DNA of 64,000 nucleotides from Brachyspira suanatina (GTDB lineage: Bacteria; Spirochaetota; Brachyspiria; Brachyspirales; Brachyspiraceae), in contig NZ_CVLB01000001.1 of the NCBI RefSeq assembly GCF_001049755.1, forward strand, positions 744,001 to 808,000, read 5' to 3'. Below are positions 7,904-18,445 of the stretch, one piece after another. Made by a program: the position numbers and the translations under genes. Numbering within the stretch: the first letter of the stretch is position 1; each line of letters opens with the position of its first letter. The notes beneath the pieces are model-generated. The model saw only the letters and a list, made by a program, of their open reading frames with translations, had not been told where the DNA came from and did not search any database.

Positions 7904-8653
7904 ATGAAAAAAGTATATAAATCAACAATATTATTTATTATTTTTAGCATAGTTCTTTTGTCATGCGGAGAGAAAGATACTGAAACTATAGAACAGTATG
8001 AAGCTAGAATGAATAGATTGGAAATTTTGAAATATTATAATATACAAGATGTTATGGCACCAAGAGTTGTAAATGACGGAGTATTATTTACATTTGCTGA
8101 AAATTATGATTCTGTAGAAATATCTGGTGATTTTAATAATTGGGAGGATAGCATACCTCTTATAAAGAGTTCTTATGGTGTTTATTATTATCTTTGGCAG
8201 CAGCCTCTTAAAGCTGGAAAATATTCATATAGATACAGAGTAAATGGTGTTTGGATTAATGACCCTGTAAATGCTAATATCGAATATGATAATAATAATC
8301 AGGTTGTAAGCTATTTTGTTTTAACTAATGATATAGGATTCTATGAAAAAAATCCTATTTATAATTCTGATGGTACAGTTACATTCTTCTACAGTAATGA
8401 TACAGCTAAAGAGGTTATGTTTACTTCTGATAAATTGGGTTTCGATAGTTTAAGATATCCTATGACTTATTCTAATAATTTATGGGTTATAACTTTGAGA
8501 GCTGAGGCTGGAAACTACTATTATAATTTTGTTGTAGACAGAATATGGGAAGTTGATCCTCTTAATATGAATGTTTATAAAGGAAGCGATGGAAGACTTC
8601 ATTCATATACATTGATAAATTATAATCAAACTAATAAAAGAATGGTATATTAA
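7904..8653 (+). CDS. Lipoprotein with two CBM48/E-set glycogen-binding-like domains
   Basis: A 249-residue lipoprotein with signal sequence and lipobox VLLSC at about residues 18-22. Residues about 55-145 form an E-set/CBM48 domain: YDSVEISGDFNNWE, then YLWQQPLKAGKYSYRYRVNG and WINDPVNAN. A second, more diverged copy covers about 150-240, ending in EAGNYYYNFVVDRIWEVDPLN. Such domains bind alpha-glucans in GH13 enzymes and AMPK, but no catalytic domain is attached. The gene lies 7 bases after fliS and ends at a strong terminator, so it is probably co-transcribed with fliS. The binding target is unknown. Confidence 0.8.
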   Translation: MKKVYKSTILFIIFSIVLLSCGEKDTETIEQYEARMNRLEILKYYNIQDVMAPRVVNDGVLFTFAENYDSVEISGDFNNWEDSIPLIKSSYGVYYYLWQQPLKAGKYSYRYRVNGVWINDPVNANIEYDNNNQVVSYFVLTNDIGFYEKNPIYNSDGTVTFFYSNDTAKEVMFTSDKLGFDSLRYPMTYSNNLWVITLRAEAGNYYYNFVVDRIWEVDPLNMNVYKGSDGRLHSYTLINYNQTNKRMVY

Positions 8654-9716: not shown

Positions 9717-12700
9717 ATGATTAAAGAATTATCTGCATATTTAGAACGTATAAAAGATATTACCACTGAAGATAAAGAGCATACTTACAGGGGTGCTTTA
9801 GAAATTTTATTAAATAATGTAAAAAATAATCTTAATTTTAGTAAAGTAAATATAAAGCATGAACCTAATAATGATAAAGAGGGCAGAGGAGCACCTGATT
9901 TTTTAATCACTATTGATTCTCTTGTTTTGGGGTATATAGAAAATAAAAGAGTGAATGCTAATCTTGATGAAATTATTAAAAGTGATCAGATAAAAAAATA
10001 TTTACTTTTAAGTGATAATATTATACTTACAGATTATTTGAGATTTATATTAATTGATGAAAATTGTAATATTATTGATGAAGTGAGAATATGCGAATTA
10101 AGCGAGATTAAAAATTATAAAAAAATTAAACTAGATGATGCAGGCACAAAGCTTTTAGATATATTTAAAATATTTTTCTCAAGAGAACCTAAACCTATAA
10201 ATACAGCTTTAGAGTTTGCTGATGCTTTAGCTATGCGTACTAGAATATTGAGAGATGATTTATATGAACTTGAAAATAATAATCAGATAGAACGTTTATA
10301 TCATATATTTAAAACTACAATTTATTCGCAGATAGATTTTGCCGACTTTTGCGATAACTTTGCCCAGACTCTTACTTATAGTTTATTCTTAGCCAGACTT
10401 AATACAAATGAAAAAATAGATTTATATAATGTAACTAAGTTTATACCGAAATCTTTTCCATTAATAAGAGCAATGAGTAAATTTCTTCAAGATTTGGAAG
10501 AATTAAATACTAATGATTTAAAAACTATAGAATGGCTTTTGAATGAAATAATAAATATTACAAATCATATAAATATTGTTTCTATTGTAGAAGAATTAAA
10601 TAAATATGATAATACAGCAGTGCAGAAAGACCCTTATATGCATTTTTATGAAACTTTTTTGTATAAATATAATCCAGAGCTTAGAGAATTAAGAGGCGTT
10701 TATTATACTCCTCAAAGTGTGGTTAATTTTATTATTGATTCTATAGATATAGTTTTAAAAGATTATTTTCATAAAAATAAAGGCTTAGGCGAGGCATTAG
10801 AAAAAGATACTAACATAACACTTTTAGACTTTGCAACTGGTACAGGCACATTTTTGCTTGATTCTTTTAGAAAGGCTTTATCTTATTATCAAAAAAACTC
10901 TGTTAAATATAACCCTAAAGAATTAATTAATAAATTTTACGGCTTTGAGTTTATGATAGCTCCATATACAATAGCACATCTTAAAATATCTCAGACACTA
11001 AAAGAAGAATTTGATTATAGTTTACAAGATGATGAAAGATTAAATATATTTTTAACCAACACTTTAGAAAATATACATTTAGATGAAGGCAAAGAAAAAA
11101 ATAATATATTTGAAGAACTTAATGAAGAGATGAATCTTGCACAAAAAACAAAAGAAAAAGAGATTCTCATAATAACAGGCAATCCGCCATATAGCGGAGC
11201 AAGTGCCAATAAAGGCATATTTGAGGAAGAAGTAAGAAAAGAATATAAAGACGGTTTAGAGTCTTCTCCTTTAGCTATAACAAGAAATGGCAAAATAGAA
11301 AAAGAAAAAAATCCTAAATGGCTTCTTGATGATTATGTGAAGTTTATAAGATTTGCACAGCAAAAAATAGATAATCAGAATGGCGGAGGAATATTTGGCT
11401 TTATTTCTAATAATTCATTTTTGGATAATCCTACTTTTAGAGGTATGCGTTATAGTTTATTAAAAAGTTTTGATGAAATATATATTGTAAATTTGCATGG
11501 CAATACCAGAAAAAAAGAAGCATGTCCAGACGGCAGCAAAGATGAAAATGTGTTTGATATAATGCAGGGTGTGAGTATAAATATATTTGTAAAGCATAGT
11601 CAAAAAATAAAAGATAAAAAAGTTGAAGATAAAAAATTAAATCCTTCATATTATAAATATGGCGGTGATTATGCTAATGTATACTATTATGATTTGTACG
11701 GTAAAAGAGAATATAAATATAAATTTCTTTTTGATAATAATATTAAAAGCATAGAGTGGAATAAATTAGAATATAAAGAGCCTTTCTTTTTATTTGTAAA
11801 ACAAGATGAAAATTTACGCGAAGAATATGATAAATTTTATAGTATAAAAGATATTTTTAGAATTTATAATGTTGGTATAGTAACATCAAAAGATTCTGTG
11901 TTAATAGGTTTGAGTGAAGATAAATTGAAAGAACAAGTTAAAAATTATTATGATGAATTTGATAATTCTTTTGTAGAAATTATTAATTATCGTCCTTTTG
12001 ATAAAAGGTTTGTTTATTATGATACGGATAAAATAGAAAGGGCAAGAAAAGATATTATGGAACATTTTTTAAAAGATGATAATAATATAGGAGTCATATG
12101 TGATAGAGGTACAAAATTAAAAGAAATATCGAATATTTTTATTTCTAATAATTTAATTGATTTACATCTTGTAGGTTCTGGAAGTTATATTTTTCCATTA
12201 TATTTATACAATACCCCTAGTGCTAAAAAAGCTATTCAGTCTGAAAATTATAATGTTGGAGATTTATTTGAGCAGTATGAAGAAAATCCATTTGAAAATT
12301 CAGATAAGATAGAAAATTTTACTGTTAATTTTAGAAATTTCATTGATAAAAAATATGATTATAATTTCTCGCCTGAAGATGTATTAGGCTATATCTATGC
12401 AGTGCTGTTTCATAAAACTTACAGAACTAAATATATAGACTTTCTAAAAATTGATTTCCCTAAAATTCCTTTTACTGATTCCAAAGATATATTTATAAAA
12501 TTAAGTGAGTTAGGTACTCAATTATACAATCTTCATCTAATGAAAGATAATAATTTAAATAATGATGTGGGTGAGGGGTTATATAAAGATGATAAGAATA
12601 ACAAAATAGAAAAGCCTATTTATAATGAAAAAGAAAAAAGATTATTTATTAATAAAAGTCTATATTTTGATAATGTATCAAAAGAAGTTTGGCTCTATAA

Positions 12701-12845
12701 AATTGGAGGCTATCAGGTATTAGATAAATATTTAAAATCTCATAAGAGTGAAGATATTGATTACTCTTATTTTCAGAAGATTATACAGATTTTAGATAAG
12801 TCATTGAATTTAGAAAATGAAATTGCAGGTATTAATTTTTTGTAA
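9717..12845 (+). CDS. Single-chain restriction-modification enzyme (type IIG/ISP-like adenine methyltransferase-nuclease)
   Basis: A 1042-residue protein that appears to combine cleavage, N6-adenine methylation and target recognition in one chain. The N-terminus carries a PD-(D/E)xK-like nuclease pattern: Asp61 in GAPDFLI, then Glu75 and Lys77 in YIENKR. Around residues 369-384 is the SAM-binding motif I DFATGTGTF, and near 488 the catalytic NPPY. After about 750 the segment NYRPFDKRFVYY is typical of the type ISP C-terminal recognition domain. No helicase motifs are seen between nuclease and methylase, so it is shorter than true type ISP enzymes (about 1600 residues) and closer in architecture to type IIG. 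The ATG has a good ribosome site and a consensus promoter. It is probably an acquired defence gene; the recognition sequence is unknown. Confidence 0.85.
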   Translation: MIKELSAYLERIKDITTEDKEHTYRGALEILLNNVKNNLNFSKVNIKHEPNNDKEGRGAPDFLITIDSLVLGYIENKRVNANLDEIIKSDQIKKYLLLSDNIILTDYLRFILIDENCNIIDEVRICELSEIKNYKKIKLDDAGTKLLDIFKIFFSREPKPINTALEFADALAMRTRILRDDLYELENNNQIERLYHIFKTTIYSQIDFADFCDNFAQTLTYSLFLARLNTNEKIDLYNVTKFIPKSFPLIRAMSKFLQDLEELNTNDLKTIEWLLNEIINITNHINIVSIVEELNKYDNTAVQKDPYMHFYETFLYKYNPELRELRGVYYTPQSVVNFIIDSIDIVLKDYFHKNKGLGEALEKDTNITLLDFATGTGTFLLDSFRKALSYYQKNSVKYNPKELINKFYGFEFMIAPYTIAHLKISQTLKEEFDYSLQDDERLNIFLTNTLENIHLDEGKEKNNIFEELNEEMNLAQKTKEKEILIITGNPPYSGASANKGIFEEEVRKEYKDGLESSPLAITRNGKIEKEKNPKWLLDDYVKFIRFAQQKIDNQNGGGIFGFISNNSFLDNPTFRGMRYSLLKSFDEIYIVNLHGNTRKKEACPDGSKDENVFDIMQGVSINIFVKHSQKIKDKKVEDKKLNPSYYKYGGDYANVYYYDLYGKREYKYKFLFDNNIKSIEWNKLEYKEPFFLFVKQDENLREEYDKFYSIKDIFRIYNVGIVTSKDSVLIGLSEDKLKEQVKNYYDEFDNSFVEIINYRPFDKRFVYYDTDKIERARKDIMEHFLKDDNNIGVICDRGTKLKEISNIFISNNLIDLHLVGSGSYIFPLYLYNTPSAKKAIQSENYNVGDLFEQYEENPFENSDKIENFTVNFRNFIDKKYDYNFSPEDVLGYIYAVLFHKTYRTKYIDFLKIDFPKIPFTDSKDIFIKLSELGTQLYNLHLMKDNNLNNDVGEGLYKDDKNNKIEKPIYNEKEKRLFINKSLYFDNVSKEVWLYKIGGYQVLDKYLKSHKSEDIDYSYFQKIIQILDKSLNLENEIAGINFL

Positions 12846-12893
12846 ATAAATAAGGCTTTACTTAAAAAATTAAGCAAAGCCTTATTTATTTAA
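12846..12893. terminator. Bidirectional terminator between the R-M gene and nagA fusion
   Basis: A long imperfect hairpin in which AAATAAGGCTTTaCTTAA pairs with TTAAGcAAAGCCTTATTT, with A/T runs on both sides. It lies between two convergent stop codons. Confidence 0.8.
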
Positions 12894-12912: not shown

Positions 12913-14874
12913 TTAAGCATGAGTTACCCATTCATGGTCATAATCGTATTCTTTGTAATTTCCTTTGAATACAACGCCTTTTACAACTAACTTTTCATCC
13001 AGTATAACTAAATCGGCAATATATCCTTCTTTGATTCTGCCGTATTTATCATCTATGCCCATAACCTGAGCAGGGTAGAGCGAAGCCATTTTTAAAGCCT
13101 CTTCTACTGTAGCACCAACTTCATTAACTACATTTCTTACAGACTGACTCATAGTTATAGATGATCCTCCTAAAGTTCCGTTATCATCTATAAGTCTGTT
13201 GCCGTCTCTATGTATTTTTTTACCAGCCCAAATATATTCTTTTATATCTGAAGCTGCAGGAGCTATGGCATCAGTTACTATACATATATGACCTGTTTTT
13301 AATTTGTAAGCAAGTTCTACAGAAGCAAAATCACAATGTACTCCGTCACATATTAAACCGGCATACATGTCTTTTGTTTCAAGTACAGCACCTACAGCAC
13401 CCGGCTCTCTTGAACCCCAAGGACGCATAGCATTGAATAAGTGAGTGGCAAAAGTTATGCCGTAAGGTATTTTTTCTTTTATTTCTGTATAAGTACCATT
13501 AGTATGGCCTACAGATACAACCTTTCCAGCCATAGCAAATTCTTCTATAACTTCACCATCAACCATTTCCGGTGCTACTGTTACCATTACGCATTTTGAG
13601 GCATTGATTTTATCTATCATTTCCATATTAGGTTCTCTTATAAATTTATCATTATGAATACCTCTTTTTTCATGAGATATATAAGGTCCTTCAAAATGTA
13701 TGCCTAATACGCCTATTACTGATAAATCTTCTATACTGTTAAACAAGTCTATTATTTTTATCATATATTCATCGCCGTTTGTAATAACAGTCGGCAAATA
13801 TGAAGTACAGCCGTATCTTTGACAAACTTCATTCATATTTTTTAATGTTTCTATAGAAGGATCAGCATTAATGTCATATCCTCCTATACCATTAACCTGC
13901 AAGTCTATATATCCAGGAGCAACTATTTTTCCTCCTAAATCTATTCTTGTAATAACAGCATCAACATCAATTTCTTTTTCTACACTTTTTATAACATTAT
14001 TTTCTATAACAATACAATGTCCTTCTATAAACTTTTCACCGTCAAATATTTTGATATTTGTAAGTGCATAATAAGATTTATAAAGACCTTTGATAAGTTC
14101 TTTAGGGTGTAAACTCTTGCTTTCCAAACTTTTAGCATATTTATAAGTTTTTACTCTTAAATCACTGCTTGATTCTTCATCGGCAACAATTATAAGTTTT
14201 TTATGCTCTTGCAGTACAGAAGTAGGGTAGAATTGGCTTATAGCTCCTTCAACACAATGAGCTAAAGCATCGGATACATCATATCCGTTCGCCATGACAA
14301 GTATATATTTAGCATTAAAGGCTTCTTCAAAACCTAATGTGAAACCTTCTCTTGGGAACATTTCTATAGGCATATTGAATTTTTTGGATTCATAGCTTCT
14401 TATTATTTCACTTATTTTTTTATCTCTTACGCTTCCATCTAATGATGAGCTTGGAGTATTAAGCAAGAAACTTCCATCTTCAGCTAAATTATCTATTAAT
14501 AAAGTGATATTGCCTAATTCTTTTATTAGATTAGCCATTCTCCTAGCTTCTTCTTTTCTATTTGCTACACTGCTGTCAAATAAATGAACATTTTCTTTAG
14601 GTATATCTATAAATTTTAAGAAATTATCTTCTAAATATTTTTGTGATATATTTGAATCTATATATTCACCAGATGAAACTATATGAATATTTTTGAAAGA
14701 TACTATATTATCATTGTAGAAAGATAATAATTTTTGATAATATGATTTATTGATATATCTTAAAGGAAAAGATAATACAAAAGGCTTGTCTTTATCTGAA
14801 TAGTCTAATATACATTTTACAGTATAATAAGCAGCCCATTCATAAACGCTTTCATTTGTAATAATGATTCTCAT
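12913..14874 (-). CDS. nagA: Fusion of degenerate NagB-like domain with N-acetylglucosamine-6-phosphate deacetylase (NagA)
   Basis: A 653-residue fusion. Residues 1-260 align along their length with glucosamine-6-phosphate deaminase (VSFKNIHIV, DIPKENVHLFD, CVEGAISQFYP, LRVKTYKY). The catalytic sites differ: the position of E. coli NagB Asp72 is Gly69, His143 is Ser135 and Glu148 is Thr140, while Asp141 is kept as Asp133. The phosphate loop GLPTGGTP is replaced. This half is therefore probably not a deaminase. Residues about 272-650 are a complete NagA, which removes acetate from GlcNAc-6-P. Metal and catalytic residues are present: Glu395 in HFEGPY, His457, His478 in THLFNAM, and Asp535 in TDAIAP. 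The gene is the last of a four-gene operon, 13 bases after the second NagB-like gene. Confidence 0.88.
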   Translation of the reverse strand: MRIIITNESVYEWAAYYTVKCILDYSDKDKPFVLSFPLRYINKSYYQKLLSFYNDNIVSFKNIHIVSSGEYIDSNISQKYLEDNFLKFIDIPKENVHLFDSSVANRKEEARRMANLIKELGNITLLIDNLAEDGSFLLNTPSSSLDGSVRDKKISEIIRSYESKKFNMPIEMFPREGFTLGFEEAFNAKYILVMANGYDVSDALAHCVEGAISQFYPTSVLQEHKKLIIVADEESSSDLRVKTYKYAKSLESKSLHPKELIKGLYKSYYALTNIKIFDGEKFIEGHCIVIENNVIKSVEKEIDVDAVITRIDLGGKIVAPGYIDLQVNGIGGYDINADPSIETLKNMNEVCQRYGCTSYLPTVITNGDEYMIKIIDLFNSIEDLSVIGVLGIHFEGPYISHEKRGIHNDKFIREPNMEMIDKINASKCVMVTVAPEMVDGEVIEEFAMAGKVVSVGHTNGTYTEIKEKIPYGITFATHLFNAMRPWGSREPGAVGAVLETKDMYAGLICDGVHCDFASVELAYKLKTGHICIVTDAIAPAASDIKEYIWAGKKIHRDGNRLIDDNGTLGGSSITMSQSVRNVVNEVGATVEEALKMASLYPAQVMGIDDKYGRIKEGYIADLVILDEKLVVKGVVFKGNYKEYDYDHEWVTHA

Positions 14875-14887
14875 GTATATTCTCCTT

Positions 14888-15661
14888 TTATTTTATATTT
14901 TTTTCTATTTTCATAAATACGGTTTGACTTGATAATCTCAAAGATGATTCATAATCAGCTATAACAGTAACATCACTATGTTTTTGCAATTTGCTTAAAG
15001 GCGAAGAGTTGCTTATACCGTATTCTAAACAATCTCTCAAAGAGCATGAATTATTTATTCCAGATGATGTTAATAAAACTGTATCAACCATATCTATAAA
15101 TCCCATACCCATACTAAATACAGTTGTAGGTACTTGGCTTTCATCTTCAAATTTATATTTAATTTCATTTATGGAATGATCGCTTAAAGTTTTTATTCTA
15201 AATAATGAAGATAATGATGACATTCTTTCATTTCCTGCAGAAGTTGAATCAGCAGTAAGCGAATACCATATAACATCGAATCTTCCTATTTTGTTTATTA
15301 TATCAAGCTGTCTATCCATTTGAGATTCATCGCCTTTTCCGTCAAATAAGAATACATTTTCTTCAGGTATATCTATTTTTGAAAGCAAATTTTCTTTTAA
15401 AAAATATGCCTTACTGTTTTTATCTGTCGGAGAAAGCCCGATATATTCCGATTGCTGAAATATAAATATATTTTTGAAATTAATTTTATAGTTTTTAACA
15501 TTTTCTACTATTTCTTTATATATATCTTTAGTATCATCCTGACTCGAAACAGAAATATAAAGTTTTTCTTTTTTTTCCTGTTTTTTTTCTAAGAAATTTA
15601 GAATATGTTTTGCTGTGAATACGGTATAATCTCGATATGAATCAGCTATATATATATTCAT
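14888..15661 (-). CDS. Stand-alone degenerate NagB-like protein
   Basis: A 257-residue relative of glucosamine-6-phosphate deaminase (SEYIGL, IDIPEENVFLFDG, RIKTLSD, LEYGISN, SQTVFMKIEKN). The catalytic base position is Ser71 instead of Asp, and the catalytic His is Thr140. Asp138 and Glu145 are kept. The phosphate-binding loop GLPTGGTP is not recognisable. The losses differ from those in the neighbouring fused domain, so the two copies may be complementary halves of an oligomer or have a binding or regulatory role. That is inference. It lies between the heparinase-like lipoprotein (27-base gap) and the NagB-NagA fusion (13-base gap). Confidence 0.8.
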   Translation of the reverse strand: MNIYIADSYRDYTVFTAKHILNFLEKKQEKKEKLYISVSSQDDTKDIYKEIVENVKNYKINFKNIFIFQQSEYIGLSPTDKNSKAYFLKENLLSKIDIPEENVFLFDGKGDESQMDRQLDIINKIGRFDVIWYSLTADSTSAGNERMSSLSSLFRIKTLSDHSINEIKYKFEDESQVPTTVFSMGMGFIDMVDTVLLTSSGINNSCSLRDCLEYGISNSSPLSKLQKHSDVTVIADYESSLRLSSQTVFMKIEKNIK

Positions 15662-15688: not shown

Positions 15689-18445
15689 TTAATCTGAACT
15701 TATTATAACACTTTCCCTATTTTCTGTATATAGTATATTGTTTATTTTATTTGTATTATCTGAAGTATTTATATAATCTTCTATATTTATATAGTAGTCT
15801 TTATTTCCTACTTTGAAATTCAAACTTGTACTATTAAAATTTCCAATAGTTATATTAGGATTTAAAATATTTCTTCTCATAGCTACTGGTACATTATTTT
15901 TAGGCATTGTGCTTACTATTATCCAAGGTTCAAATTTCTTAACATTTTCTCTAGTTGATACTTGTGCTGTATATAATTTATTCTGTCCTATATTGGTTTG
16001 AATAACATTATATTCTAATTCATTTGATGAAAGTATTTGTATATATGTGTAAGAGTAAGCTCCATCTATAATGAATTTATTGGACTCATTATCAAAAGTG
16101 ATTGGAAGTTTTGAGTTTACATTCCATTTATATTTATATCCATAAACATGATATTCTCTTGTTATATCAGGTAATGCTTCAATATCTTCTTTTACTACTA
16201 AAATATTAGGCTTTAAATAGTAGAATCTTCTGTCATAGTTTTTAAGATTTATTGGGTATGTATATCTTTGATTTGCTTTAGAATGAGCATAGAACATCTT
16301 ATAATAATTAGTGATATTTTCTATATAAGAGTAACTGCCCATATTTTCTTCTATTTTACTTCCATCTATTGATATGCCATTATGAAAATCTGCATCTTTG
16401 AAAATAGTATAATTATTAGAATCAAAGTTATAACCTAATTCATCTATTATAGAATCGCCGTAATTATAATATACAAAACTCATTCTGTCATTATGATTAA
16501 GTCCGAAAGAATCATCTGCATTTCTTCCTTTTGCATATACTGCTAAATAAGGAGCATTTAGAGCTTTTATATTTTCATTATAAATAGCTGTTTGTATTTT
16601 TTTTAAAAGTAAAGTCTCGTATTGAAAATCGACATTTGAATTTACATTATCTCTTAGATAATAATTATTCCACATCAATGCATAAGGAAGATATTTGATA
16701 TCAGCAGCTTCGCTTTGGGCAAATACGGCATAATTTTTATATAAAGGATCAGCGCACATTTTACTTAAAAGTTCCATAACTGCATTTCTAGCACCTGTAT
16801 CAAATCTTAATTTGCTTCTATTATATATAGCTGTATAACCTATAGGCAATGTGTAGCCTGAAGGATATCCTACTATTGATAAATATTTTCCTATATTTCT
16901 AAATGATTCTAAAGTGAAAGCATCAAATATACCTACATTTTTTAATGATAATGCATAAGTTAGTATAGGCATAATAGTATCAAATGCTTCACTTATTGAA
17001 GATTTAAAACTTCCGTCACTTTCAAACATAGAAAATACCATGCTGTTTATATAGTTCATAGAAAAATAATGCCAATTTCTAATTTGATCCTGATTAACAT
17101 TTTCATTAAGCATGTTTATTGCTATTAATCCTAATGTTGTAACATATTTGATTGTGTTTTTATTTCTATATTCTGAAGGATTTTCTACTATATAATTATA
17201 AAGTGTTTCTCCGTATTTTATAAATTCCTGCTTCATTAATACTATTTCTTCAGGAGAAAACTCATCATACATTAAATCAAACGGCATAAGCAAAGAATTA
17301 GCCAATATATTAACAGCATCTATAATATTATAATTTTCTATTTTTGTTTCATCTAGGTTTACTATATCCCTTATCATCTGCTTTATTTCGTATTTTAATA
17401 AATTATTATTAGGTTCAAAAGCAGCCTTCAAAGACATAATCATAGTATGAGAAGGCAGATTTTCAAAATATAATTTATTAGTATCATCAGTTGATGAATA
17501 TGCTATGTTGTTAACAGACCATTTACCCATATTTGCTGAAGTATATGATTTGAATGCATTTATATTTCTTAAAAGTACAGAAGGCTGCAGTCTATTTTGT
17601 TTGTATAATAAATTGTATAAAACTTCAAAAGTTTGTTTATCTATAAATACAAAAGGTCTTGGTATATTGAAAGTTTTATTTGTTATAGGTATGATTTTAG
17701 TACTGCTGTCATCTATAAAGAAATGATAAATTTTTCTTAAATTTGTATCTCCGTTTTCATCGAAAGCTATATACCATTTACCGTTTTCTAATGTATTAGT
17801 TATAGAGAAGAAACTATTATTTCTTAATGTATATTCATAACGTGTTGTAAATGAAAGCTCTTTAGATATTGATATTCTAGTAAGAGTTGTTCTTTTATTT
17901 ATCATAACGAAAGGAGGATTGCTCTTTGCTATATGTCCGCTTTCAGGAAGTATCAATGCTATATTTTCTCTTGATTTTATTTTGTCATCATATTGATTAA
18001 TTGCAATTTTTACTTTATCTTTTGTATCAACATTTCCTATTGTTTCTATACTTACGGATAATTTATCCAATTTATCTTTCTCTAATGGAGGATTGAAATT
18101 TGTAGCATATAATGTTAGGTTTATATTTCTATTAACTAATGGATTTTCTATAGAAAGTTTTTTTATTATGTTGTTTTCTTCTACTTCTATGTTTAATTGT
18201 ATAGGTATATTATCAGAATCTATATTATAAGTTAATGATATTCCTTCATTTATTTTTACGCTTTTTCCATATTTTAAATTTATAAATTTAGGATACTGTT
18301 TATTATATTCAGGATATGTAATAGTATAAGAATTATCTTTTTTATCGTAAACGGCTTCTATCTCTCTATCTACTACTTTTTTTTGAGAGCATGATAATAT
18401 AGGTATTATCAATAATGCTAATATAATTCTTATAAGCTTTTTCAT
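15689..18445 (-). CDS. Heparinase II/III-like lipoprotein (putative polysaccharide lyase)
   Basis: A 918-residue lipoprotein with a signal peptide and lipobox ILSC at about residues 16-19. An N-terminal beta-rich part (about 30-270) is followed by a largely helical region (about 290-620) and then a beta-sandwich. The strongest family signal is LNHNDRMSFVYYNYGDS near 650 and DADFHNGISIDG near 690, the HxD...yG and fHN motifs of heparinase II/III-type lyases. These enzymes cut uronic-acid polysaccharides such as heparan or alginate-type chains by beta-elimination. Its place upstream of two nag genes fits use of amino-sugar polysaccharide from host mucus or matrix. The exact substrate is unknown, and the active-site Tyr/His were not fixed by alignment. 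Confidence 0.7.
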   Translation of the reverse strand: MKKLIRIILALLIIPILSCSQKKVVDREIEAVYDKKDNSYTITYPEYNKQYPKFINLKYGKSVKINEGISLTYNIDSDNIPIQLNIEVEENNIIKKLSIENPLVNRNINLTLYATNFNPPLEKDKLDKLSVSIETIGNVDTKDKVKIAINQYDDKIKSRENIALILPESGHIAKSNPPFVMINKRTTLTRISISKELSFTTRYEYTLRNNSFFSITNTLENGKWYIAFDENGDTNLRKIYHFFIDDSSTKIIPITNKTFNIPRPFVFIDKQTFEVLYNLLYKQNRLQPSVLLRNINAFKSYTSANMGKWSVNNIAYSSTDDTNKLYFENLPSHTMIMSLKAAFEPNNNLLKYEIKQMIRDIVNLDETKIENYNIIDAVNILANSLLMPFDLMYDEFSPEEIVLMKQEFIKYGETLYNYIVENPSEYRNKNTIKYVTTLGLIAINMLNENVNQDQIRNWHYFSMNYINSMVFSMFESDGSFKSSISEAFDTIMPILTYALSLKNVGIFDAFTLESFRNIGKYLSIVGYPSGYTLPIGYTAIYNRSKLRFDTGARNAVMELLSKMCADPLYKNYAVFAQSEAADIKYLPYALMWNNYYLRDNVNSNVDFQYETLLLKKIQTAIYNENIKALNAPYLAVYAKGRNADDSFGLNHNDRMSFVYYNYGDSIIDELGYNFDSNNYTIFKDADFHNGISIDGSKIEENMGSYSYIENITNYYKMFYAHSKANQRYTYPINLKNYDRRFYYLKPNILVVKEDIEALPDITREYHVYGYKYKWNVNSKLPITFDNESNKFIIDGAYSYTYIQILSSNELEYNVIQTNIGQNKLYTAQVSTRENVKKFEPWIIVSTMPKNNVPVAMRRNILNPNITIGNFNSTSLNFKVGNKDYYINIEDYINTSDNTNKINNILYTENRESVIISSD

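Follow-up and report, generated by a model that had tools for sequence, protein, structure and literature searches.

What does a deaminase domain do once its active site has been lost and the domain has become joined to the deacetylase that precedes it in the same pathway? The question is raised by a locus of Brachyspira suanatina within a stretch of 64,000 nucleotides (the window, meaning the whole stretch of DNA that was analysed). Here, a gene for a fusion protein, with a NagB-like domain followed by a complete NagA, lies next to a gene for a second, stand-alone NagB-like protein. The first-pass annotation held that both NagB-like sequences have the glucosamine-6-phosphate deaminase fold throughout but have lost catalytic residues and the phosphate loop in different ways, that the NagA half is intact, and that the two proteins might form a complex that binds GlcN-6-P or regulates NagA. 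The answer reached here is that, on balance, the deaminase has probably been gutted to its allosteric site, which would now serve as a GlcNAc6P-sensing domain of NagA.

The two genes are both on the minus strand and are separated by 13 nt (Table 1). The inverted repeat past the stop codon of the fusion gene is a probable bidirectional terminator, and a gene for a type ISP restriction-modification enzyme (N6_Mtase, Type_ISP_C; window 9717-12845) is convergent with the fusion gene. On the other side, the gene for the predicted lipoprotein ends 27 nt before the stand-alone gene and is a conserved neighbour in Brachyspiraceae. In a 60-genome sample this lipoprotein is found in Brachyspiraceae only; it is missing from one genome (G034) that also lacks the stand-alone protein, and it has no Pfam match and no solved relative. 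A gene of the same type is kept (L144, 2575-5403) in a genome without NagA and without the pseudo-NagB pair (G051). Another predicted lipoprotein, with AMPK1_CBM/CBM48 glycogen-binding-type domains, is encoded at window positions 7904-8653.

Table 1. Features of the fusion locus, in window coordinates; residue equivalences refer to E. coli NagB.
Feature	Position	Strand	Remarks
Fusion gene, 653 aa	12913..14874	-	NagB-like regulatory domain, putative (residues 1-255), linker, complete NagA (268-642)
NagB-like domain of fusion	14110..14874	-	D72/H143/E148 -> G69/S135/T140, phosphate loop lost; dN/dS 0.03-0.05
Fusion allosteric residues S143-S144 (= E. coli S151-S152)	14443..14448	-	kept
Fusion allosteric residues R150 and K152 (= E. 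coli R158, K160)	14419..14427	-	kept
Fusion Y246 (= E. coli Y254, allosteric face NC)	14137..14139	-	in all fusions, no stand-alones
Linker, residues 254-273, HPKxLxKGLYKxYYA, invariant	14056..14115	-	joins NagB-fold C-terminal helix to NagA
NagA half of fusion	12949..14073	-	sole NagA in genome
Stand-alone NagB-like protein, 257 aa	14888..15661	-	D72/H143 -> S71/T140, E145 kept
Inverted repeat past fusion stop	12843..12892		23-nt arms, 96% complementary, 4-nt loop
918-aa predicted lipoprotein gene, upstream of stand-alone	15689..18445	-	

By sequence, the nearest solved relatives of these proteins are NagA and NagB structures. Residues 1-251 of the fusion match the NCBIfam nagB family TIGR00502 with 146 bits and the stand-alone protein matches it with 130 bits, both below the cut-off of 236.9, while residues 268-639 of the fusion match nagA (TIGR00221) with 358 bits, above the cut-off of 225.65. 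The AlphaFold2 model of the stand-alone protein has the NagB fold (pLDDT 87), with a TM score of 0.90 to the NagB structures of V. cholerae and Borrelia. The model of the full-length fusion has a pLDDT of 55 overall and is confident only over about residues 10-200; together with homology over the full length, this part assigns the NagB fold to the fusion. The shared fold first claimed therefore holds for both proteins, by a complete model in one case and by homology with a partial model in the other.

The fate of the active site can be followed residue by residue on the sequence of E. coli NagB, which is identical to that of PDB 1cd5 and provides the numbering used here. The alignment returns the residues that had first been read from the translations: at positions 72, 143 and 148, in register, the fusion has Gly, Ser and Thr, and the stand-alone protein has Ser, Thr and a retained Glu. 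The phosphate loop P40-T44 is gone, the corresponding residues being PLRYI in the fusion and SSQDD in the stand-alone protein, and K208 is replaced by V200 and N204, respectively. D141, which the first reading had not included, is retained as D133 and D138. Neither protein has a working active site, as had been claimed, and the conclusion that both are, by sequence, pseudoenzymes is supported by a survey of 57 distinct NagB-like sequences (25 fusions and 24 stand-alones from Brachyspiraceae, four of each from Brevinema). The general base D72 is kept in 0/57 of them, and H143 solely in the Brevinema fusions. Judged from these sequences, the degeneration is ancient and common to Brevinema, not private to this locus.

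The NagA half of the fusion is intact, in agreement with the first reading. Its score lies above the family cut-off and the metal and substrate residues are all present (E395, H457, H478, N481, R489, H513 and D535) and invariant from Brachyspira to Brevinema. The fusion is also the only NagA available: the family search of the genome gives one above-cut-off match, and no second NagA was found in the 26 genomes of the genus when they were searched with the whole fusion.

GlcNAc6P is an activator of E. coli NagB and binds between its subunits. The allosteric cleft is described as having two faces, A and NC, and E148 as the T-state salt-bridge partner of K160 (PMC4008608); S151, R158 and K160 are named ligand contacts (PMC4281351), and hexameric NagBs are reported to have a characteristic C-terminal helix (PMC9812318). 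The three ligand residues of face A (S151, R158 and K160) occur in 57/57 NagB-like sequences, without exception in either type. The retention of these three was compared with that of 102 positions that are invariant in E. coli NagB and five allosteric-type spirochaete NagBs. Twelve of the 102 are still invariant across the 57 NagB-like sequences and include S151, R158 and K160 (random-set p 0.0015), and the set D72/H143/R172/K208 is unusually poorly kept (random-set p 0.027), where both values compare categories of positions and not independent events, the sequences being related. A chance resemblance at the allosteric site was rejected, because the alignment there is free of gaps and random draws from the conserved positions are retained less well.

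Among canonical NagBs of these families, D72/H143/E148 are kept in 8/8 cases and S151/R158/K160 in 0/8, so the NagB fold alone does not require the three allosteric residues. As far as sequence comparison can tell, catalysis and the allosteric site are parted between different genes. The stand-alone protein keeps the allosteric residues S148, S149, R155, K157 and T158 and is without the C-terminal helix and Y254. Position 254 is Tyr in 29/29 fusions and in 0/28 stand-alones, and the fusions also retain the NagB-type C-terminal helix; position 161, which is outside the published contact list, is Thr in 28/28 stand-alones and in 0/29 fusions. Counting against a sensing role, the Brachyspira fusions have lost Y121 and E148, which are also listed as allosteric contacts, and are altered at position 161. 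K160, however, stays in these proteins without its E148 partner, an argument for its contacting a ligand.

The obvious ligand is GlcNAc6P, since it is what the PTS makes from GlcNAc during uptake and what NagA deacetylates. The genome that contains the window encodes a GlcNAc-specific PTS IIBC (above its cut-off), so GlcNAc6P should form on uptake. In Brevinema, where the stand-alone and fusion genes stand directly before ptsI and ptsH, gene order also ties the pair to sugar uptake. A binding or regulatory role, as first proposed, is favoured over deamination; the ligand is more likely to be GlcNAc6P than the GlcN-6-P originally named, since the allosteric GlcNAc6P pocket is kept and the GlcN6P active site is lost. 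The retained residues support the presence of a sensing site, and from the sequences we infer ligand binding, a hetero-oligomer, coupling to NagA and a direction of regulation. GlcNAc6P entering via the GlcNAc PTS would occupy the cleft that face A of one NagB-like protomer, with its S151/R158/K160 equivalents, forms with face NC of the neighbouring protomer (the N-terminus and the Tyr254 equivalent), in the arrangement known from E. coli NagB. Movement of the subunits would then reach the NagA domain by way of the C-terminal helix and the linker, and deacetylation of the same molecule would be adjusted there, most likely by feed-forward activation. The stand-alone protein, which has face A and neither the C-terminal helix nor Tyr254, could join a mixed ring as another face-A subunit and modulate it, and deamination would be left to a separate B. 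subtilis-type NagB without the allosteric site.

A more specific version, put forward tentatively, is that the site is divided in a mixed ring, the stand-alone protein giving face A and the fusion face NC, so that GlcNAc6P would be sensed between two dead deaminases and would control the only NagA of the cell. Thr161 in all 28 stand-alones and Tyr254 in all 29 fusions fit such a ring and are suggestive only. The two-protein complex of the first-pass annotation is possible in this form, but it is not obligatory, because two Brachyspira species, G034 and G147 (B. catarrhinii, L128), keep the fusion and lack the stand-alone protein.

The main rival to a sensing domain is an oligomerisation scaffold, in which the NagB-like domain would only assemble NagA, with or without the stand-alone protein, into a trimer or hexamer and no ligand would be sensed. 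S151, R158 and K160 are located at the trimer interface and could have persisted for oligomerisation; G129, E217 and Q230 persist across the NagB-like sequences as well, and the C-terminal helix of the fusion is what such a role might also preserve. However, what has stayed invariant are the polar residues that contact the ligand, R158 and K160 carry long, positively charged side chains of the kind that usually line a phosphate site, and K160 has survived the loss of its T-state partner in the Brachyspira fusions. Assembly without sensing is considered unlikely.

A role in docking or channelling fares less well and is thought improbable. The pseudo-NagBs would bring the active, monomeric NagB, or else a PTS protein (HPr, for instance), to NagA, so that GlcN6P is passed on or deacetylation is tied to the state of the PTS. 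The gene order in Brevinema is suggestive in this respect: the stand-alone and fusion genes directly precede ptsI and ptsH, with a PTS EIIA gene beside them on the other strand, and E. coli HPr has been reported to bind NagB (PMC8167557). The genome containing the window has neither nagB nor PTS genes adjoining the pair. Its canonical nagB is found ∼300 kb from the pair (G000:C1:457 kb) and carries the GVGPNGHIAFNEP and NLDEY motifs. Docking leaves the selective retention of allosteric residues unexplained.

Residual catalysis, either weak deamination or another reaction on a sugar phosphate, is rated lower still. It would draw on the partial active sites of the Brevinema fusions, which keep D141, H143, E148 and K208, and on the scores of the Brevinema proteins, both of which (L112, 4540-5319 and 5368-7341) exceed the TIGR00502 equivalog cut-off without D72. 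Automatic annotation would call these proteins deaminases, the cut-off being passed despite D72G. The canonical NagB of the B. suanatina genome scores just under the same cut-off (226.5 against 236.9), and the cut-off alone is therefore not decisive. Weak or new catalysis in the NagB-like domains is disfavoured by the loss of the general base in every sequence surveyed. In Brachyspira, moreover, H143 is gone from both proteins and the fusion has also lost E148, K208 and the phosphate loop, and canonical NagB is present in the genomes that carry the pair.

The distribution and age of the pair bear on whether it is maintained. The fusion is found in 26/26 genomes of the genus (cut by contig ends in two of them) and the stand-alone protein in 24/26. 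Among 393 genomes sampled from the phylum, full-length fusions are confined to Brachyspira, one related genus (G043) and one other family (G073, G079, G099 and G119), and outside Brachyspira the stand-alone gene always adjoins the fusion. A scan of 84,980 species genomes for the linker pattern identified this other family as Brevinema and gave fusions only in Brachyspiraceae and Brevinema, a result from which a fusion with a different linker could escape. Two Brachyspiraceae without NagA (G051 and G140) are also without the pair. A candidate for a further fusion (G299) was rejected, as its nagB and nagA are separate adjacent genes. The phylogenetic tree places every fusion in a single clade (100/100), grouped with E. 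coli NagB, and every stand-alone in a second (95/86); the canonical NagBs of these families are set apart from both in a clade of their own (100/100). It follows that the two paralogues are older than the divergence of Brachyspiraceae and Brevinema, unless they were transferred together on a single occasion. The linker is the best-conserved stretch: Brachyspira and Brevinema are 85% identical here, compared with 35-37% in the NagB-like domain and 50-51% in NagA.

Between Brachyspira species, dN/dS is 0.03-0.05 for the fused NagB-like domain, 0.04-0.08 for the NagA half and 0.05-0.10 for the stand-alone protein, values which indicate that both genes are under strong purifying selection. It is hence very improbable that the NagB-like sequences are decaying remnants, that is, non-functional duplicates nearing loss of which the fused one is kept only because NagA is needed: two Brachyspira species lack the stand-alone gene and two assemblies have it with a frameshift at poly-A tracts, but the dN/dS of the fused domain, equal to that of NagA, disfavours pseudogene decay, and both types have been conserved between two families since their common origin. 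In the window, the stand-alone gene has two A8 tracts near codons 25-31 (15569-15589); of the two affected loci, L017 (G093) and L020 (G078), one has an A7 tract that causes a frameshift and the other is disrupted in the same region, where sequencing error or slippage is possible.

A GlcNAc6P-sensing domain on NagA can be set beside several known systems. With the hexameric NagB of E. coli type (TIGR00502; PDB 1dea, 1fs5) the pair shares whole-length homology, the fold, S151/R158/K160, Y254 (in the fusions) and, for the fusions, the position in the tree. It differs in the absence of D72, in the loss of most catalytic and phosphate-binding residues in Brachyspira, in the fusion to NagA and in comprising two divergent paralogues. 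Compared with NagA (TIGR00221; PDB 1yrr, 3egj), to which its C-terminal half corresponds completely, the fusion adds the N-terminal NagB-like domain and the linker, a combination seen in the genome scan only in Brachyspiraceae and Brevinema. NagB-like proteins of the PRK02122 type, which have a C-terminal extension and occur in other families of the phylum, are similar in length (∼650 aa) and also contain a NagB-like domain; they are not NagA fusions, form a separate clade (100/100), keep D72 and H143 and lose K160. No paper on a NagB-NagA fusion or a NagB pseudoenzyme was found among the open-access papers searched, which falls short of proving novelty.

The NagB fold has likewise been reused as a sensor of phospho-sugars in the effector-binding domains of CggR/SorC type, which were returned by the fold search. 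These are parts of transcription factors with remote similarity, and they bind the effector in the former active-site pocket; in the present proteins it is the allosteric site that survives and the active site that has gone. HisZ of short-form HisG and the trypanosome AdoMetDC prozyme are catalytically dead paralogues or homologues that regulate an active enzyme; as separate subunits, they act on their own enzyme or on an unrelated one. Most known pseudoenzyme regulators put the old active site to new use or do no more than stabilise a partner. In the Brachyspira fusion this would be reversed, the active site having been discarded and the allosteric site kept on an enzyme whose substrate is the allosteric ligand.

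For Brevinema, the annotation is corrected, as homologues of both genes pass the nagB equivalog cut-off without the general base. If the mixed ring exists, an allosteric site would have been taken from one enzyme and transferred to the preceding enzyme of the pathway. If the sensing domain itself is borne out, allosteric control would be movable between the enzymes of a pathway as a ready-made part.
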